Positions 1,709 through 12,725 of a stretch of DNA of 20,604 bases are shown piece after piece. Position numbers and translations under genes: made by a program. Positions within the stretch are counted from its first letter, which is position 1, and every line of letters starts with the position of its first letter. Under the pieces are notes generated by a model. It did not search any database. It had not been told where the DNA came from and was given only the letters and a program-made list of their open reading frames with translations. Source of the stretch: Pseudomonadota bacterium (GTDB taxonomy: Bacteria > Pseudomonadota > Gammaproteobacteria > Steroidobacterales > Steroidobacteraceae); assembly GCA_021792815.1 (NCBI GenBank), contig JAJYTX010000008.1, positions 1 to 20,604 on the forward strand, given 5' to 3'.

Positions 1709-4624
1709 TCACGGCGTGAACGGCAGTTGGCTCAGAGCGAAGTTGACTGGTTGCAGGGCCGTGTATGGAATGGCGCGACCGTCGCGCTCAGCCGGCAGAT
1801 AAGATGCGCTCTGCACCCAGCGCAGAGCGGCCTGGTCGAGTCTGTTGGATCCGGAGGATCCTGCGACTGCCATCGCCGTGACGCACCCGGTTGCGTCGAT
1901 GCGAATCTTCAGTATGACGGCGCCCTCGATTCCGGCGCGCTGCATCGACGATGGATAATATTTGTACAGTGCTCCCGTGTGCGCGATTGCCGGCGCGTCG
2001 TGGCCGGACGTCGAAGCAGCCGGCGCCGGGCACTTAATGGTGCGCGGCTGCAAGCGTCCCGAGAATTCGTTTGCTCGCTTGCTGGCGATCAGGTCGCGCT
2101 CGGTAACGTAAGCGTCGTCGAGTGAGATGGCAAGCTTCGCCCATTGCGAGTCCGGCTCACTCCCTGCAAGTTCCCGGCGTAACGCCGCTTCCGCCGCAAG
2201 TACCCTGGGACCGTGTGGTGTTGCCGGGGGCATGTTGTTGCGCGCCAGGAATGAGGGCCATAAGTCGCGGTTGCGCATCATCGCCGGCACGACTCTCCAG
2301 TAGCCCTGGAGAGCACGATACCGCCCCGCCAATTTCTCGTAAACGCTTGCGATGCCGTCTGTCAAGGGTGACGACTTGGTGGTGCTCGCCGAAGAGGAGG
2401 TTGAGTTCACCGACTTGCGGACAGCAGCGACAATGTACTCGTCGACGTCCTGACTGAACGAACGTCCGAGCAGGTCCTTCCCAGCCAAGGGGTCGAGGAC
2501 GACCGCCATTTGCTGCAGGCGCACGACCTCATCTTCGAGCTGCGCCTTGAGATCCGGCGCCGGCGTCGTGAGCGATGCGTTCGCACCAATGCCGTGCTCG
2601 AGGATGTGCGTCGAAGCCACGGCGAGCATCTGCTTCTCGCTGATGTCGCCAACTGATACCTCACTCTGGAAGCCGATCGTCAAGCCGTACAGCACACCCG
2701 CCGAGGCGGTTCCCGGCCTGCTTCCCGGAGCCTGCAATACGGTTGTGCTCGTTACCTCATCAGGAGCAACACGGATCAGCTGTCCGTTGAAAGGGCTGAT
2801 GCGCCTCTGCATGTTAGCATAGGTATATTGCAGTGACCGCCGCGTTGCCCTGGGCGGGCGCGGCTGACGCCACAGGCCGACATACGTTCTTTTCTCGGCG
2901 CCCCGGTACCACCACGCGCCAGCCACCTCCCAGGACGCCCGAGGCATCTGAGCGGCATAGCTCATCGCCAGATAGAGCATGCTACGTTGATCCAGTTTGA
3001 CAAGCGCTGGCGGCACACTCATCTGGAAACGGGGGGTCCGTAAGGTCCAGGTCGGAGCCGATACGAGCGACAAGTGTGCCAGCGCATCGGGCAGCAACGC
3101 GCGGCGCTTGAGGAACGCGCTCCACTGCGCGAGAGTGCCCTGATAGACGAGATTCACCTGATTGGCGAGCAGCTTCAAGTCTTTTTCAGCTTCCCCGAGA
3201 CTCACCGAGGGACTGTAACGAATGAGACCGACATATCCGTCCGGCGTGGGAAGCAGCAAGGCGATGAGGTAACTGTCGAGATAGGGCAGCGGCCAAACCC
3301 TCTGTTGCCATTTTCGGCCATAGCGATCCGTCCATAGGAGGTCGGACAACGCCGGGCCCAATGAGGTCACCCGATCGGCTACGGGGCCTACCTGCCGACG
3401 GATGACGAGCCCTTTCAGCGCCTCATTCATGAATTTCCGGGAATCGCGGTAGAATGCGCCGCCGTCGGCGCCGTTACCGCGCACCAGCCGCAAGAACGTC
3501 GCGCCGGCCAGGCTTGCCACGGAGACTTTGCCGTTACCGGGGAGATCGGTGGACTCGAACGAGGGCTGCTCGAATTTCCATTCGCCGCTGTTCTGCTGAA
3601 CAATCACGCTCACGGCCGGCTGGGGCTGAACAGTCGAGTACACGATGGCATCCGAGCCGTTGCCCCTTGGAAACATGGTGTCCGCATAGGCGGTGAGGAA
3701 ATCCGCCAGCGCCTGATCGGTGTCGCGTTCGACGACACGCTCGTAGGCATGCTCGAAGGCGGTCCATCTCAGGGGCAACGCAAACCCGCCTTTCAGGGTG
3801 TGGACCGTGTAACCCTGCATGAACGGCAGCCTCACGACGTAACGGTTGTCGAAGCGGGCTTCCTCGGGGGCACGGAGCACGATGCCGATCGGCAGAGCGT
3901 AATTGAGATTCTCATCGGGCGACTTGGCGATCACCACCCCGATGACCTTGCCACGCGCATCGAGGAGCGGTCCACCGCTGTCGCCTGGCGAGGCGGGAGC
4001 GGAGAAACGGATCCACTGCCAACGGCCGGCCTGGGTCTCGGGCGTCTCGGAGGTGTACAGCCCACTGCGGATGACGATGCCCTCGCCAAGCGCGTTGCCC
4101 ACGGCGAAAACCGGCTCGTCGAGCTGCGGGCTCTGGTTCCATTTCAGACGCGCGGGCGGGGGAGCACCTTTGAGAGTGAATACCGCATAGTCCTCATCCA
4201 TGGAGAATTTTACGATCGAAGCGACAGGATAAACCGTGCCGTTCGGGCCACGAAGCGCGGGATTGCCGTACTGGCTATCCACGGCGGCCTCTAGAACGTG
4301 TGCGGCCGTGACGTAGGTGCCGGAGCCCAGCGCGAACGCCGTACCGACCTGTCGGTATTTGTCCGTGCGCTGCTGATATGGTATCAGCTCACGCGGCAGT
4401 GGTTTTGCGTAGCTGAGCGGATCGTGAGCCGGCTTACGGAGAACGACCTCAAAGGTTGCAGCTGCGACCGCCCGCTGGATCTGAGGCGTCACGCCTGCCC
4501 GGACGCGCACGCTCAGGGAGAGCGCCAGCAGCGCGACGATCCGCAGTTTCCCGAGGCGGCGATTACGACTCAACCGTGGAATCCCAATAGCATGCGTCGA
4601 AGAGCGCGACTGAACTTCTAACAC
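1709..4624 (-). CDS. Exported trypsin-like serine protease with C-terminal TonB domain (971 aa)
   Basis: The protein starts at a GTG (4622-4624) preceded by AGGGGG nine bases upstream. Residues 25-43 form a basic-then-hydrophobic leader, so export to the periplasm is likely. Residues 85-250 are a trypsin-like S1C/HtrA-type protease domain with the full triad: His109 in VTAAHV, Asp145 in SMDEDYAVF and Ser216 in SPGDSGGPLL. Residues 890-966 match a TonB C-terminal domain (YPSSMQRAGIEGAVILKIRI, then SSGSNRLDQAALRW). The roughly 640 residues between are not recognisable to me. There is no PDZ domain that I can see, which separates it from DegP/DegS. TonB C-terminal domains contact TonB boxes of outer-membrane receptors or act as stand-alone modules. 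A protease joined to one suggests cleavage or quality control at the envelope, but that is inference. It stands alone between an empty stretch and decayed element genes. Confidence 0.8.
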   Translation of the reverse strand: MLEVQSRSSTHAIGIPRLSRNRRLGKLRIVALLALSLSVRVRAGVTPQIQRAVAAATFEVVLRKPAHDPLSYAKPLPRELIPYQQRTDKYRQVGTAFALGSGTYVTAAHVLEAAVDSQYGNPALRGPNGTVYPVASIVKFSMDEDYAVFTLKGAPPPARLKWNQSPQLDEPVFAVGNALGEGIVIRSGLYTSETPETQAGRWQWIRFSAPASPGDSGGPLLDARGKVIGVVIAKSPDENLNYALPIGIVLRAPEEARFDNRYVVRLPFMQGYTVHTLKGGFALPLRWTAFEHAYERVVERDTDQALADFLTAYADTMFPRGNGSDAIVYSTVQPQPAVSVIVQQNSGEWKFEQPSFESTDLPGNGKVSVASLAGATFLRLVRGNGADGGAFYRDSRKFMNEALKGLVIRRQVGPVADRVTSLGPALSDLLWTDRYGRKWQQRVWPLPYLDSYLIALLLPTPDGYVGLIRYSPSVSLGEAEKDLKLLANQVNLVYQGTLAQWSAFLKRRALLPDALAHLSLVSAPTWTLRTPRFQMSVPPALVKLDQRSMLYLAMSYAAQMPRASWEVAGAWWYRGAEKRTYVGLWRQPRPPRATRRSLQYTYANMQRRISPFNGQLIRVAPDEVTSTTVLQAPGSRPGTASAGVLYGLTIGFQSEVSVGDISEKQMLAVASTHILEHGIGANASLTTPAPDLKAQLEDEVVRLQQMAVVLDPLAGKDLLGRSFSQDVDEYIVAAVRKSVNSTSSSASTTKSSPLTDGIASVYEKLAGRYRALQGYWRVVPAMMRNRDLWPSFLARNNMPPATPHGPRVLAAEAALRRELAGSEPDSQWAKLAISLDDAYVTERDLIASKRANEFSGRLQPRTIKCPAPAASTSGHDAPAIAHTGALYKYYPSSMQRAGIEGAVILKIRIDATGCVTAMAVAGSSGSNRLDQAALRWVQSASYLPAERDGRAIPYTALQPVNFALSQLPFTP

Positions 4625-5097: not shown

Positions 5098-5117
5098 CGT
5101 GACGAGGGGCGATGGCC

Positions 5118-5364
5118 ATGTTCCTCACCGCAGATCAGCTCGCAGGACTCACCGGTTATCAGATGCCATCGGCACAAATCCGCTGGCGTCGTGACCAGGG
5201 ACTCCGACACTGGGTCCGAGCGGACGGCAGGCCAGCGGTGTCCGTCGCCTCGATCGACGGACCTGCGCCGATCCCGGCCCACCCACAGCCCACAGCCCAA
5301 TTTTGCGGCGATCCGCAAGGGGGGCTCGCAGCATGCCCGTGGGCCGCCGCAGGACGCGCGATAA
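5118..5364 (+). pseudogene. DUF4224 gene, frameshifted by a 7-bp duplication
   Basis: The start of the frame (MFLTADQLAGLTGYQMPSAQ, then IRWRRDQGLRHWVRADGRP) is a textbook DUF4224 domain, a small protein commonly encoded just ahead of phage and island tyrosine integrases. The typical tail PNFAAIRK is present but in another frame. A tandem copy of CCCACAG at 5282-5295 accounts for this exactly: taking out one copy joins PIPAHPQ to PNFAAIRK and gives a 79-residue protein ending at TAA 5362-5364. The restored gene would overlap the integrase start (5333), the usual layout. An in-frame ATG six bases upstream (5112) is an alternative start. The function of the family is not established; an accessory or excision role near the integrase is a guess. 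Confidence 0.75.
5282..5295 (+). repeat. 7-bp tandem duplication (CCCACAG x2)
   Basis: Two adjacent copies of CCCACAG followed by CCCAA. Removing one restores the DUF4224 reading frame into its family-typical tail, so this looks like the inactivating mutation. Confidence 0.8.
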
Positions 5365-5608
5365 GCATTTGCCTCGGGGGGGGGGTGTACCTCCGGGCAC
5401 GAGCATATTGGCGCCGCCGATCGTCCGGTACGCGACGGGTCTCGCGCTGTCGTACGGCACGGATCGCCCGGCGGTCCTCGCGCTCGAGCAGCGGCACCTC
5501 ACCGATGCGGGACTCGTATTCGCCCGGTGCAAGACGGGGCGCGGTAAATCAGCCGGCGGAGCGACGATCTGCGGGCGACTGCTGGCCGCCCCACGCCCAA
5601 AATGCTGA
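5333..5608 (+). pseudogene. Tyrosine recombinase (phage-type integrase), internally deleted and frameshifted
   Basis: The ATG at 5333 begins MPVGRRRTRDKHLPRG, the characteristic N-terminus of integrases that follow DUF4224 genes. The expected continuation VYLRARAYWRR is present but in a different frame after a run of ten G (5376-5385). Soon afterwards, in the first frame again, comes a piece of the catalytic domain (RYATGLALSYGTDRPAVL, then EQRHLTDAGLVFARCKTG). That places the first part of the catalytic core next to the N-terminal arm, so roughly 150 residues are missing between them. The catalytic His-x-x-Arg and Tyr region is also absent, so the enzyme cannot work. It lies about 60 bp from the 3' end of tRNA-Asp, the usual relation between an integrase gene and its tRNA attachment site. 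Confidence 0.75.
5376..5385 (+). repeat. Homopolymer run of ten G inside the integrase relic
   Basis: Ten consecutive G lie between CCTC and TGTACC. A run of nine would keep the integrase start in frame with VYLRARAYWRR. Such runs slip readily in replication and in sequencing, so the length should be verified. Confidence 0.85.
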
Positions 5609-5626
5609 ACACTCGGGCCGGATATG

Positions 5627-5652
5627 AGACAGCCCCGTTCACGGGGCCGTCT
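5627..5652 (-). terminator. Hairpin downstream of tRNA-Asp
   Basis: AGAC-A-GCCCCG, loop TTCA, CGGGGC-C-GTCT: a 10-bp GC-rich stem with one mismatch and a tetraloop, 14 bases beyond the tRNA 3' end. On the minus strand no clear T-run follows, but stem strength and position fit a terminator or processing structure for the tRNA transcript. Confidence 0.5.
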
Positions 5653-5666
5653 AAGTCATTGAAATC

Positions 5667-5743
5667 TGGCGGAGCGGACGGGACTCGAACCCGCGACCCC
5701 CGGCGTGACAGGCCGGTATTCTAACCAGCTGAACTACCGCTCC
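5667..5743 (-). tRNA. tRNA-Asp (GTC)
   Basis: The minus strand reads GGAGCGGTAGTTCAGCTGG at the 5' end and GGGTTCGAGTCCCGTCCGCT toward the 3' end. There is a 7-bp acceptor stem GGAGCGG/CCGCTCC and an encoded CCA. The anticodon arm is CCGGC-CTGTCAC-GCCGG with anticodon GTC, so it decodes aspartate GAC/GAU. Length is 77 nt including CCA. Its 3' end faces the integrase relic, which makes it the probable integration site of the element to the left. The gene itself is intact. Confidence 0.97.
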
Positions 5744-5944: not shown

Positions 5945-6418
5945 ATGAAACCCATTCCACTGTCTCTTGCGGCCAGCCTCCTGCTCGGCGCCGGGCCGCT
6001 CCTCGGATCTGCTTCCCCGCCCGCCCACGCCGGTCTCGGGCAACCCGCCGCCTCGGTCTCCACCGATCGGGCCAGGATGAAGGGGCAGCTGCGCCAGAGG
6101 TCCGGCATCGGTTACACGGTCCAGGAGATCACCCTGCCCTCCGGCACGCTCGTGAAGGAATTCGTCTCGCCCGCCGGCATCGTCTTTGCCGTCAGCTGGC
6201 GCGGGCCGACCATGCCGGATCTCGCACAACTCCTCGGCAGCCCGTACTTCGGCCAGCTCAAAGCGGCGCAGAAGACCCAGCGCTTCGGCCATAATCACCT
6301 CGAGGTCACCGGCCCGACATTCGTGATGCACGCCGGCGGCCACATGCGGGCGTTCTTCGGGGTGGCCTACGTGCCCTCGCTCCTGCCGCCGAACGTCACG
6401 CCTTCCGACCTCCATTGA
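5945..6418 (+). CDS. DUF2844 exported protein
   Basis: A 157-residue protein with a signal peptide (MKPIPLSLAASLLLGAG..., probable cleavage after AHA, residue 29). The mature part has the DUF2844 signature: YTVQEITLPSGTLVKEF, then VSPAGIVFAVSWRGP, then PDLAQLLGSPYFGQL at residues 57-105. Family function is unknown to me. The gene is 17 bases ahead of the DUF3443 lipoprotein gene, and the two families are commonly found side by side, so they probably act together at the cell envelope. There is no Shine-Dalgarno ahead of the ATG; a -10-like TATAGT lies just upstream, hinting at a leaderless start. The mature protein has no cysteines and no membrane segment beyond the leader. Confidence 0.85.
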   Translation: MKPIPLSLAASLLLGAGPLLGSASPPAHAGLGQPAASVSTDRARMKGQLRQRSGIGYTVQEITLPSGTLVKEFVSPAGIVFAVSWRGPTMPDLAQLLGSPYFGQLKAAQKTQRFGHNHLEVTGPTFVMHAGGHMRAFFGVAYVPSLLPPNVTPSDLH

Positions 6419-6435: not shown

Positions 6436-7758
6436 ATGCGCTCACGATCGCTCATTGGGATTGGGCTCCTTCCGCTGCTGCTCGCGCTCGCCTCCTGCGG
6501 CGGGGGGGGCGGCTCGAGCATCGCCACCAGCCCGGGCACCTCGGGCGGTTCGGGCGGCGGGCAGACCATCACCACCTCCGGCGCCAATGTCGTCACGATG
6601 ACCGTCGATGCCGGTCCGCCAGGCGTCAATGCCGCCGACATTCCCTACATCACGGTCACCGTCTGCAACCCCGGCAATACGTCCCAGTGTCAGACCTTCG
6701 ATCACATCGAGGTCGATACCGGCTCGTACGGGTTCCGGATTCTCGCCGATGCCACGGACACCTCCGGCAACGCCTACGGCCTCAGCCTGCCGCCTGAAAC
6801 CGACAGCGGGGGCAACCCTCTGGCCGAGTGCACGGCGTTCGTCGACGGCTACAGCTGGGGCCCGGTGGCCACCGCCGATCTGCAGATCAGCGGCGAGGCG
6901 GCCAACGGCGTACCAGTGCAGGTGATCGGCGATCCCGGCTTCCCGGCGGCCCCCTCGAGCTGCAGCACCAACGGCACCGGGACCGCGGAAAACACGGTCA
7001 GCGCCTTCGGCGCCAACGGCATCCTCGGCGTCGGCCCGTTCACGCACGACTGCGGATCAGGCTGCGTCGGCGCGGCCAACGTCGGTAACGGCGTCTACTA
7101 CACCTGTCCGCCGGCCGGCTGCCAGGAGACCGCCCTCAGCAGTACCGACCAGGAGGTCTCCAACCCGGTGCCCGGCTTCCCGACCGACAACAACGGGGTG
7201 ATCATCGAGCTGCCGCCCATCGCCTCCAGCGGCGCGCCGACGGCCACCGGCTCCCTGGTGTTCGGCATCGGCACCGAAGGCAACAATGGCCTGAGCGCCG
7301 TGAACGTGCTCACCGCGGACAGCAACGGCTATGTCACCACCTCCTTCAACGGCCAGTCGCTGCCCCAGTCGCTGTTCGACACCGGCTCGAACGCCTATTA
7401 CTTCGATGACCCCTCGATCCCGACCTGCACCGCCTCGGGAATGAGCAGCTGGTTCTGCCCGTCCTCCCCCCTGACCCTCGGCGCGACCAACTACGCGGTG
7501 GACTCGAGCGGCACGATGACCGGGCAGAGCTCCAGCGTGACGTTCTACGTCGACAACGCCCAGACGCTGTTCAACAGCAGCAACACGGCCTTCAACGACA
7601 TCGCGGCGAGCAGCGGCAGCCAGGCCGCCTACTGCCAGAACGGCAGCAGCAACTGTTCGTTCGACTTCGGGCTGCCGTTTTTCTTCGGCCGCGATGTGTA
7701 CGTGGCCATCTCCGGGGCGAACACCCCGGCGGGCCTGGGCCCCTACTTCGCGTACTGA
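6436..7758 (+). CDS. DUF3443 lipoprotein with pepsin-like double DTGS architecture
   Basis: A 440-residue lipoprotein. The signal peptide (MRSRSLIGIGLLPLLLALAS) ends in lipobox LAS-Cys21, followed by a Gly/Ser-rich linker, so it is probably anchored in the outer or inner membrane. I use the ATG at 6436 because it puts the leader first; a TTG seven codons upstream overlaps the previous stop. The body matches DUF3443. It shows DTGS at 94-97 (IEVDTGSYGFRIL), GILGVG at 195-200, a second DTGS at 315-318 (SLFDTGSNAYYF), and a closing strand LPFFFGRDVYVAISG with GLGPYF after it. These landmarks fall in the order and rough spacing of the two lobes of pepsin-type aspartic peptidases. Twelve cysteines besides the lipid-anchored one could form disulfides. 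Enzymatic activity is inference. Co-transcribed with DUF2844 and probably the GST gene 32 bases on. Confidence 0.85.
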   Translation: MRSRSLIGIGLLPLLLALASCGGGGGSSIATSPGTSGGSGGGQTITTSGANVVTMTVDAGPPGVNAADIPYITVTVCNPGNTSQCQTFDHIEVDTGSYGFRILADATDTSGNAYGLSLPPETDSGGNPLAECTAFVDGYSWGPVATADLQISGEAANGVPVQVIGDPGFPAAPSSCSTNGTGTAENTVSAFGANGILGVGPFTHDCGSGCVGAANVGNGVYYTCPPAGCQETALSSTDQEVSNPVPGFPTDNNGVIIELPPIASSGAPTATGSLVFGIGTEGNNGLSAVNVLTADSNGYVTTSFNGQSLPQSLFDTGSNAYYFDDPSIPTCTASGMSSWFCPSSPLTLGATNYAVDSSGTMTGQSSSVTFYVDNAQTLFNSSNTAFNDIAASSGSQAAYCQNGSSNCSFDFGLPFFFGRDVYVAISGANTPAGLGPYFAY

Positions 7759-11118: not shown

Positions 11119-11783
11119 GCGGCCGTTCTCCTCGGCGGACAGAGGCCACCGCCGCGCACACGAAACACTGCGCACACGGCGGCATAGGATGCAACGGCCC
11201 GGGCCCGCGGCAAATCCGCGAAACTACGCAACGGCGGCCACTCCGGCATGGGCTCGATCGGGTGCCGCGGCACCGTGCCCGCCGCCATCGTGCCGCGGGC
11301 ACACGCAGGCCTGGAACGCGGAACCACAGCGCTTCGGCACACCGCTTCACCTGTCGAGGCTGCGCCGCGTTCATCCGAACCGTCGTCCAGCCTATCCCCG
11401 GCACTTGACGGACGGCCGGGCGGATGCCCGATACCCGGTGCGCCGAACGCGCCAGAACGACGGACTGTGCGAGCCGGACCAGAACCGGCACCCCGTCACA
11501 ATTTCCCTCCGGGTCCGAACAGGCACCTGCCGAAAACATTACGGTAGGCGTCACGAACCCGATGCGATGTGTCTCCGTTGGCGGACATGCAGCAGAGGCG
11601 GAAATTTTATGTCAAATTTTCACCCCTGTATCACGACCGGCCGTTGCTCAACTACGCGCAACATCCCCAGGGTCTGCGGACTATCCTTGTCATCTATTCT
11701 GAAGGACCGACGTTGAACGTCATGTCGTGAAGGAAATTGCGTCAAAGGGACAGACATACTTTGATCACCGGAGATCCGTGACC
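11119..11783. other. 665-bp intergenic stretch; short palindromes, no gene seen
   Basis: This lies between two divergently read genes, so both promoters should be here. I see no frame that looks like a known protein. Structures present are a perfect palindrome GTGCCGCGGCAC (11262-11273), an 8-bp inverted repeat GTGCCCGC/GCGGGCAC (11275-11282 and 11295-11302), and GACGTT-G-AACGTC (11709-11721) in the leader of the DUF4382 gene. The part from 11590 on is notably richer in A and T (for example AAATTTTATGTCAAATTTTC), which fits a promoter area or upstream element. Confidence 0.4.
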
Positions 11784-12725
11784 ATGAGACACTTTATGCA
11801 GCCCATGCACCGCTGGAAACGTTTGCGAACGGCTGTCCTCGTATGCCTTGCCCTGCCGCTGGCGGCATGCGGCGGAGGCGGCGCTTCATCTCCGGCCACC
11901 CTGAATCTCGGCATCACCGACGGCCCGGTCGATTCGGCCAGCTCGGTAACGATTTCCTTCACCGGCGTCGAGCTGCAGCCAAGCAGCGGCGGCAATCCCG
12001 TCACCTTCAACTTCAATACGCCACAGACGATCAACCTGCTGAACGAGCAAAACGGCAATGAGGCATCGCTTCTCAATGGTGCCGCCGTGCCGGCGGGCAA
12101 TTACGCCTGGATCCGTCTGCTGCTCAATGTCGCTGCGGACGGCACCGTGGCCAATTCGTACATCGAGATCAACGGCGCCCAGTACCCGCTGATGATCCCG
12201 AGCGGCGCCCAGACGGGGCTGAAGCTGGTTCAAGGCTTCACCATGACGGCCAACCAGGTGGCCAACTTCACCATCGACTTCATGCTGCAGCAGTCGATCA
12301 CCGCCCCAGCGGGGCAGACCAGCGGCGGCACACAGGATTACATCCTGCGACCGGCGCTGCGCTTGATCAACAATGTCCAGGCCGGAACGATCAGCGGCAC
12401 CGTGGCACTCTCGACCTTGCAGAGTAATTCGGCGTGCCTGAACGGATATTCCGGGAGCGGCCCGCTGCCCAATGCGCACGTGTACGTCTTCTCCGGAACC
12501 GCGACTCCCTCGAGCAGCCTCACCCCGGTGGTGGAACCGCAGATCACGCTGTCGTCCTCGGGCAGCTACTCCTACGACCAGCCGTTCCTGCTCGCCGGCA
12601 GCTACACGCTCGCGGTCGCCTGCACGAGCACATCGACTACGGGCTCGACCACGGTAGCGTTCCTGCCATCCGCGGGAATCTCCGCCACAGTAACCGCCAA
12701 TCAGACGACGACGGTAAATTTCTGA
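11784..12725 (+). CDS. DUF4382 lipoprotein
   Basis: A 313-residue lipoprotein. The ATG at 11784 has GGAG ten bases upstream; a GTG 19 codons earlier is possible but would push the leader inward. The leader RTAVLVCLALPLAAC ends in a lipobox with Cys29, followed by GGGGA. Residues 38-196 show the DUF4382 pattern (LNLGITDGPVDSASSVTISF, then GVELQ, then VPAGNYAWIRLLL). The tail from about residue 200 (GTISGTVALSTL... ending TTTVNF) resembles a carboxypeptidase-regulatory or Ig-like beta domain. It is probably anchored in the envelope facing periplasm or surface. Family function is unknown. It shares the Cys-Gly4 anchor style with the DUF3443 lipoprotein upstream but is a separate unit. Confidence 0.85.
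   Translation: MRHFMQPMHRWKRLRTAVLVCLALPLAACGGGGASSPATLNLGITDGPVDSASSVTISFTGVELQPSSGGNPVTFNFNTPQTINLLNEQNGNEASLLNGAAVPAGNYAWIRLLLNVAADGTVANSYIEINGAQYPLMIPSGAQTGLKLVQGFTMTANQVANFTIDFMLQQSITAPAGQTSGGTQDYILRPALRLINNVQAGTISGTVALSTLQSNSACLNGYSGSGPLPNAHVYVFSGTATPSSSLTPVVEPQITLSSSGSYSYDQPFLLAGSYTLAVACTSTSTTGSTTVAFLPSAGISATVTANQTTTVNF

Follow-up and report, generated by a model that had tools for sequence, protein, structure and literature searches.

DUF3443 lipoproteins as probable two-lobed, pepsin-fold aspartic peptidases of bacteria, usually encoded beside DUF2844

Results

The DUF3443 gene and its lipoprotein features

The window analysed here is the whole 20,604-nucleotide stretch at positions 1 to 20,604 of contig JAJYTX010000008.1 (assembly GCA_021792815.1), from a Pseudomonadota bacterium of the Steroidobacteraceae. 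It carries a two-gene module on the + strand, in which a DUF2844 gene (5945..6418, +; PF11005, E 1.1e-37) encoding 157 amino acids with an N-terminal signal-peptide-like stretch comes first and ends 17 bp ahead of the start codon of a DUF3443 gene (6436..7758, +). A first-pass annotation, made from the sequence, had proposed that this second open reading frame (ORF) encodes a lipoprotein with the landmarks of a two-lobed pepsin-type aspartic peptidase. The frame was recovered as described; it translates to 440 amino acids and matches PF11925 (DUF3443) over its full length (E 2.4e-122, 408.8 bits against a cut-off of 25), and a scan of NCBIfam gave no match above cut-off. Its lipoprotein character was also borne out. 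The N-terminus is a lipoprotein signal, MRSRSLIGIGLLPLLLALASC followed by GGGG (6436..6498, +), with the lipobox L-A-S-Cys21 and the run LASCGGGG at residues 18-25, and of the 120 best DUF3443 homologues 115 have a lipobox that a regular expression recognises, while the other five seem to be N-terminally incomplete. A Gly/Ser-rich tether (residues 22-49; 6499..6582, +) then leads to a domain that starts at about residue 50, and no pepsin-like prosegment is apparent in the sequence between lipobox and domain. Nine cysteines (Cys77, 85, 132, 176, 206, 210, 224, 229 and 341) are each present in at least 220 of 225 DUF3443 sequences, and this set of at least nine near-invariant residues suggests disulphides that would fit an oxidising periplasm. 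Four other loci (L028, L044, L072 and L075) have additional sequence of the type TLTWSTTNATSCTASGAWAG in the frame ahead of the peptidase domain, perhaps a small Ig-like domain.

Pepsin motifs and their order

The landmarks that had been listed for the window protein are present in the pepsin order. The first catalytic motif, D94-T-G-S (6715..6726, +), and the second, D315-T-G-S (7378..7389, +), start 221 residues apart. Between them lie the flap hairpin region ECTAFVDGYSWG (residues 131-142; 6826..6861, +), the psi-loop motif GILGVG of lobe 1 (residues 195-200; 7018..7035, +), about 100 residues after the first aspartate, and early in lobe 2 the strand FGIGTE (residues 276-281; 7261..7278, +). 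The pepsin-like ending consists of the lobe 2 psi-loop motif and the next strand, LPFFFGRDVYVAI (residues 413-425; 7672..7710, +), followed by AGLGPYF at residues 432-438.

Predicted fold and kinship with bacterial pepsins

The AlphaFold2 model of the window protein has a mean predicted local distance difference test score (pLDDT) of 89.7 and a predicted TM score of 0.89, and residues 1-39 are its sole segment with pLDDT below 50. In this model the two lobes of a pepsin fold lie within one chain, and the PDB structures among the listed matches are pepsin-type peptidases, with 10-18% identity to solved pepsins in the structure alignments. PE_PGRS16 (4EHC) was absent from the 50 structure matches listed, which is uninformative either way.

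The relationship can also be seen by comparing profiles. We built a bacterial family A1 profile from 34 peptidases, all of which match PF00026; this set has beta-secretases as the best 60 of its 137 PDB sequence matches. With hhalign, a 102-member DUF3443 profile aligned with it at a probability of 70.8 and an E-value of 3.8e-5, pairing D94-T-G-S with a DTGS (D76), D315-T-G-S with a DSG (D295), GILGVG with GILGLA, FGIGTE with LGGGEE, F135 with Y108 and W141 with W114. A rerun on first-row columns gave a score of 39.4 (probability 40, E 0.0003); the reversed profile scored 17.6, and 60 column shuffles had a mean of 16.2 (standard deviation 3.1, maximum 23.6). Reciprocally, the DUF3443 hidden Markov model (HMM) matched 19 of the 34 bacterial A1 members at E <= 0.1 (best 9.1e-6), and in one of them (P0206) the match spans model positions 44-108 and includes the first motif. 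From the profile scores and the reciprocal HMM matches, the kinship between DUF3443 and the bacterial pepsins therefore shows in the sequences and not in the fold alone, and we regard the predicted pepsin fold of DUF3443 as close to certain. When the two lobes were compared with each other as profiles, a 26-column segment around DTGS alone aligned (probability 4), so that the sequences show no sign of an internal duplication.

Conservation of the active site

Conservation was examined in 235 DUF3443 sequences (120 homologues and 115 locus-derived domains, 225 of them distinct), from which short or weak domain matches had been removed. The equivalent of D94 is Asp in all 224 distinct sequences with letters at that position, the one other being a fragment cut before the site, and that of D315 is Asp in 225/225; when these sequences were aligned independently with MAFFT (229 distinct), both aspartates came out the same way. 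A single sequence has DAG as its second motif, the others of the 225 having DTG or DSG, and Ser97 and Ser/Thr318 are kept. Two positions upstream of the first aspartate, at residue 92, the window protein and 39 of 102 members have Glu, 33 have Leu and 19 have Gln; the first motif thus reads EVDTGS here, and the second, LFDTGS, fits the family A1 pattern. Both psi-loop glycines, in I196-L197-G198 and F416-F417-G418, are present in 102/102, and G198 is found in 225/225. W141 of the flap region is conserved. The peptide patterns with which the 80 loci described below were fetched contained no DTG motif. Every sequence compared is a recognisable DUF3443 protein, with plasmid copies down to about 31% identity, and more remote members could therefore differ.

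The DUF2844 partner

In 74 of 80 DUF3443 loci, DUF3443 is preceded on its own strand by a DUF2844-like ORF. Of the six others, L008 and L017 have a DUF3443 frame whose start coincides with the end of the contig, and L045, L066 and L076 have at least 3.6 kb of upstream sequence without DUF2844. The sixth, L013, is a tandem pair of DUF3443 copies (L013:1-2155), the upstream one of which is cut by the contig end. Six whole genomes contain 13 DUF3443 and 13 DUF2844 genes, which by their coordinates form 13 adjacent pairs; seven of these pairs are in the Paraburkholderia phenazinium genome (L054), and Collimonas sp. OK307 has one gene of each kind. In a further series of loci (L090-L119, some of which repeat earlier ones), 28 of 30 had DUF2844 with DUF3443, and the two that did not, L100 and L117, were the lowest-scoring of the 30. 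All unpaired DUF3443 copies keep both aspartates, the cut L013 fragment not reaching the first.

L100 and L117, from Caballeronia and Burkholderia vietnamiensis, are divergent plasmid copies whose immediate upstream neighbour is in each case a TAXI family TRAP transporter solute-binding gene, possibly a second type of partner for DUF3443. Two plasmids show the pair in other settings: on a Burkholderia glumae plasmid (L101) its neighbours are cheZ on one side and, on the other, a VOC-family gene after which come flhB, flhA and flhF, and on the Paraburkholderia aromaticivorans plasmid pBN2 (L118) it lies between site-specific integrase and replication initiation genes. Clustering by blastp of the ORFs from the window and the 80 loci gave, among the first 45 clusters listed, none beyond those of DUF3443, its antisense frames and DUF2844 that was shared by over 21 of the 81 loci; several of the clusters resemble overlapping frames. 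The similarities of DUF3443 and DUF2844 are correlated over 66 loci (Spearman 0.36), to which we give no weight because linked genes correlate anyway.

The DUF2844 protein is predicted to be a compact domain (pLDDT 81.6). Its model had no Foldseek match at E <= 0.001, and in a structure comparison all Z-scores were at most 7.3, inside the background range given for models that lack a clear match; the top three rows (4ifa, 4h0a and 9a4o) are taken by proteins other than those of the PepSY/BLIP kind. No PepSY-type Pfam model matched any of 74 DUF2844 members at E <= 1, and the DUF2844 profile matched neither the bacterial A1 profile (probability 0.1) nor the DUF3443 profile.

Distribution

Of 7996 proteins scored in a single search, 7156 were related to DUF3443 at E <= 0.001, and the genomes in which the DUF2844-DUF3443 unit was seen bear the labels Pseudomonadota, Acidobacteriota and Myxococcales. 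PF11925 scored above cut-off in 10 of 398 genomes from the phylum of the Collimonas query, 3 of 274 from its class and 3 of 297 from the phylum of a query titled Acidobacteriota, these samples including the query genomes themselves. PF00026 was above cut-off in 6 of 398 genomes from the phylum of the Collimonas query, and neither model was found in any of 14 control genomes. The first-pass annotation had called two-lobed peptidases of this type rare in bacteria, which holds in relative terms, as the two counts from the same phylum show.

Other genes in the window

At 5112-5743 a DUF4224 gene (PF13986, E 4.7e-11) is followed by a tRNA-Asp gene (5667-5743, - strand), about 200 bp before the DUF2844 gene. 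DUF4224 occurs in integrase neighbourhoods, and the two may be what is left of an element that had integrated at the tRNA. The 971-amino-acid product of 1709-4624 (- strand) seems to be an unusual combination: a trypsin-like peptidase domain (PF13365) lies close to the N-terminus, and the protein ends in a TonB C-terminal domain (PF03544). A lipoprotein-like DUF4382 gene (PF14321, E 6.6e-29) at 11727-12725 has a Cys-Gly-rich N-terminus akin to that of DUF3443.

Discussion

In this study, we have examined a family whose name records no function and found that its members combine a predicted pepsin fold, the pepsin motifs in order, two invariant aspartates, a lipoprotein signal and a regular partner gene. 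Based on these results, we consider it probable, at roughly three chances in four, that DUF3443 is an active two-lobed aspartic peptidase. This suggests that in DUF3443 a group of membrane-tethered bacterial enzymes that cut proteins, usually accompanied by a small secreted partner, has been overlooked. In the mechanism that we propose, DUF3443 would be exported and lipidated on Cys21, and the Gly/Ser tether would hold it at the membrane; a protein so lipidated and tethered would have its catalytic domain facing the periplasm or the cell surface. There, D94 from lobe 1 and D315 from lobe 2 would together activate a water molecule to cut peptide bonds beneath the flap hairpin (residues 131-142), as in pepsin, and DUF2844 would act on the enzyme in trans as an inhibitor or a chaperone, or else serve as its substrate. 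Purely by analogy, the enzyme would be expected to be active in the acidic to weakly acidic range.

Several of our observations weigh against an active pepsin homologue and have to be set beside those that argue for one. PF00026 matched neither the window protein at E <= 1 nor any of 102 DUF3443 members at E <= 0.1, and a sequence search of the PDB, with the single sequence or with the 102-row profile, gave no match up to E 10. The Foldseek superpositions were poor (query TM 0.39-0.47, root-mean-square deviation 6.7-13.7 A). The profile alignment reached a probability of just 70.8, or 40 in the rerun, and ended at residue 381, short of the last psi-loop, leaving the structure alignments as the sole basis for pairing the closing LPFFFG motif. 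Within the active site, 15 of 224 sequences have Gln, Ala, Glu or Met in place of the first-motif Gly. The flap position 135, which we take to be that of the A1 flap tyrosine (Tyr75 of pepsin), is Phe in 218 of 224 sequences, Tyr in 5 and Leu in 1; the paired Y108 is invariant among the 34 bacterial A1 peptidases and aligns with a Tyr of BACE2 that lies shortly ahead of a conserved Trp. Finally, Arg101, seven residues after the first aspartate, is present in 224/224, at a position where pepsin has Trp39.

The last three of these features would suit a pseudo-peptidase, in which the pepsin fold serves as a tethered binding module for DUF2844 or another ligand, as it does in plant xylanase inhibitors, and the bacterial A1 set does also match the TAXi_N and TAXi_C models. 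We nevertheless think this rather improbable, since both aspartates are present in every sequence with letters at these positions, including seven paralogues of a single genome, and Ser97 and Ser/Thr318 are retained with them; members of family A1 that are not peptidases are known by active-site aspartates that are not conserved, according to Rawlings and Bateman (2009; PMC2761423). As for a chance likeness of motifs in an unrelated beta-rich lipoprotein, the low identity to solved pepsins and the empty PDB sequence search are what one might expect from it, but we reject it as having next to no chance of being correct, given the predicted pepsin fold, the invariant aspartates and the shuffle controls, none of which came near the observed score (39.4 against a maximum of 23.6).

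That DUF2844 inhibits or chaperones DUF3443 in trans, replacing the missing prosegment, is a tentative idea that we hold with less than even confidence, as its structure comparisons stayed within background, Foldseek returned nothing at E <= 0.001 and the 74 members lacked any PepSY-type match. A fuller version, in which the pair is a self-contained exported proteolysis module, duplicated as a unit, with a PepSY/BLIP-like DUF2844 supplying the prosegment in trans, strikes us as doubtful. Alternatively, DUF2844 could be a dedicated substrate, cut by the tethered peptidase for release or activation at the envelope. The adjacency of the genes (74/80 loci and 13/13 pairs) would suit this, as would the precedent of PecA, reported to cleave itself and co-secreted PE_PGRS proteins (PMC6819658); the compact predicted domain and the DUF3443 copies without DUF2844 in L045, L066, L076, L100 and L117 speak against it, and we find it unlikely.

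If DUF3443 is active, a large unannotated family would gain a function, DUF2844 would gain a suggested one, and a broad bacterial branch would be added for rooting the pepsin superfamily. According to Rawlings and Bateman (PMC2761423), relatives of pepsin in prokaryotes might decide which of the two forms, one-lobed or two-lobed, is the older. Should the self-contained module also prove real, the two-lobed aspartic peptidases would have a large branch of exported members in bacteria, with a bearing on the origins of pepsin. In the open-licence literature we found no paper naming DUF3443 or DUF2844, the papers on malaria parasites that came up being taken, from their titles and the openings of their abstracts, as matches to gene identifiers; judged in the same way, none of the other papers listed deals with DUF3443.

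The comparison with known systems places DUF3443 next to family A1 rather than inside it. Like pepsin, cathepsin D and BACE (PF00026), it has two lobes, each with a D-[TS]-G and a hydrophobic-hydrophobic-Gly motif, and a flap region, so that both psi-loop motifs of the family are there; unlike them, it has Phe in place of the flap tyrosine, no PF00026 match at cut-off, no apparent prosegment, a bacterial lipoprotein signal and a DUF2844 partner. Because of the flap Phe, Arg101 and the lack of a PF00026 match, we have not filed it in family A1, and it looks like a sister family with the same fold. The proposal of a pepsin-type A1 peptidase thus stands as to the fold and both aspartates and falls as to formal A1 membership. 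Weak Pfam matches among the 102 members, to Asp_protease_2 in two (best 4.2e-4) and to PE-PGRS_C (PF20729) in one (7.5e-5), point the same way; nine members rescanned at E <= 0.01 matched DUF3443 alone, with neither PF20729 nor Asp_protease_2.

Retropepsin-like bacterial proteases, of the family A2 type, share the DTG aspartic chemistry and the fold class. A retropepsin has one lobe per chain, as described in PMC2761423, and must dimerise, whereas DUF3443 has both lobes and both motifs in a single chain. Sequence similarity to DUF3443 was detectable in the bacterial A1 set, which, like shewasins A and D, is bacterial and two-lobed. Homologues of A1 were reported from seven bacterial genomes, and described there as without signal peptides (Rawlings and Bateman, 2009; PMC2761423). 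Shewasins have no prosegment (PMC4814920), and none is apparent in DUF3443 either. Shewasin D is described in the same paper as pepstatin-inhibited and active in acid; unlike DUF3443, it is mainly cytoplasmic and has no signal peptide. The same separation is seen in our data, where a lipobox occurs in 0 of 120 homologues of the bacterial A1 set and in 115 of 120 DUF3443 proteins. After the second D-T-G, marine-bacterial homologues have Ala (PMC4814920), as compared to Ser/Thr in 224 of 225 DUF3443 sequences; as shewasin D is acid-active and those homologues carry Ala, an argument about pH from this residue is weak. Within the literature found, the one characterised precedent for an exported bacterial aspartic protease with two motifs is PecA, a mycobacterial surface protease with DTG and DSG in one chain (PMC6819658). 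PF20729, the C-terminal domain of PecA and PE_PGRS16, did not match the window protein at E <= 1. PecA is a mycobacterial PE protein of type VII secretion, unlike DUF3443, and shares with it both motifs in one chain; its place at the bacterial surface, given in the same source, may be shared too.
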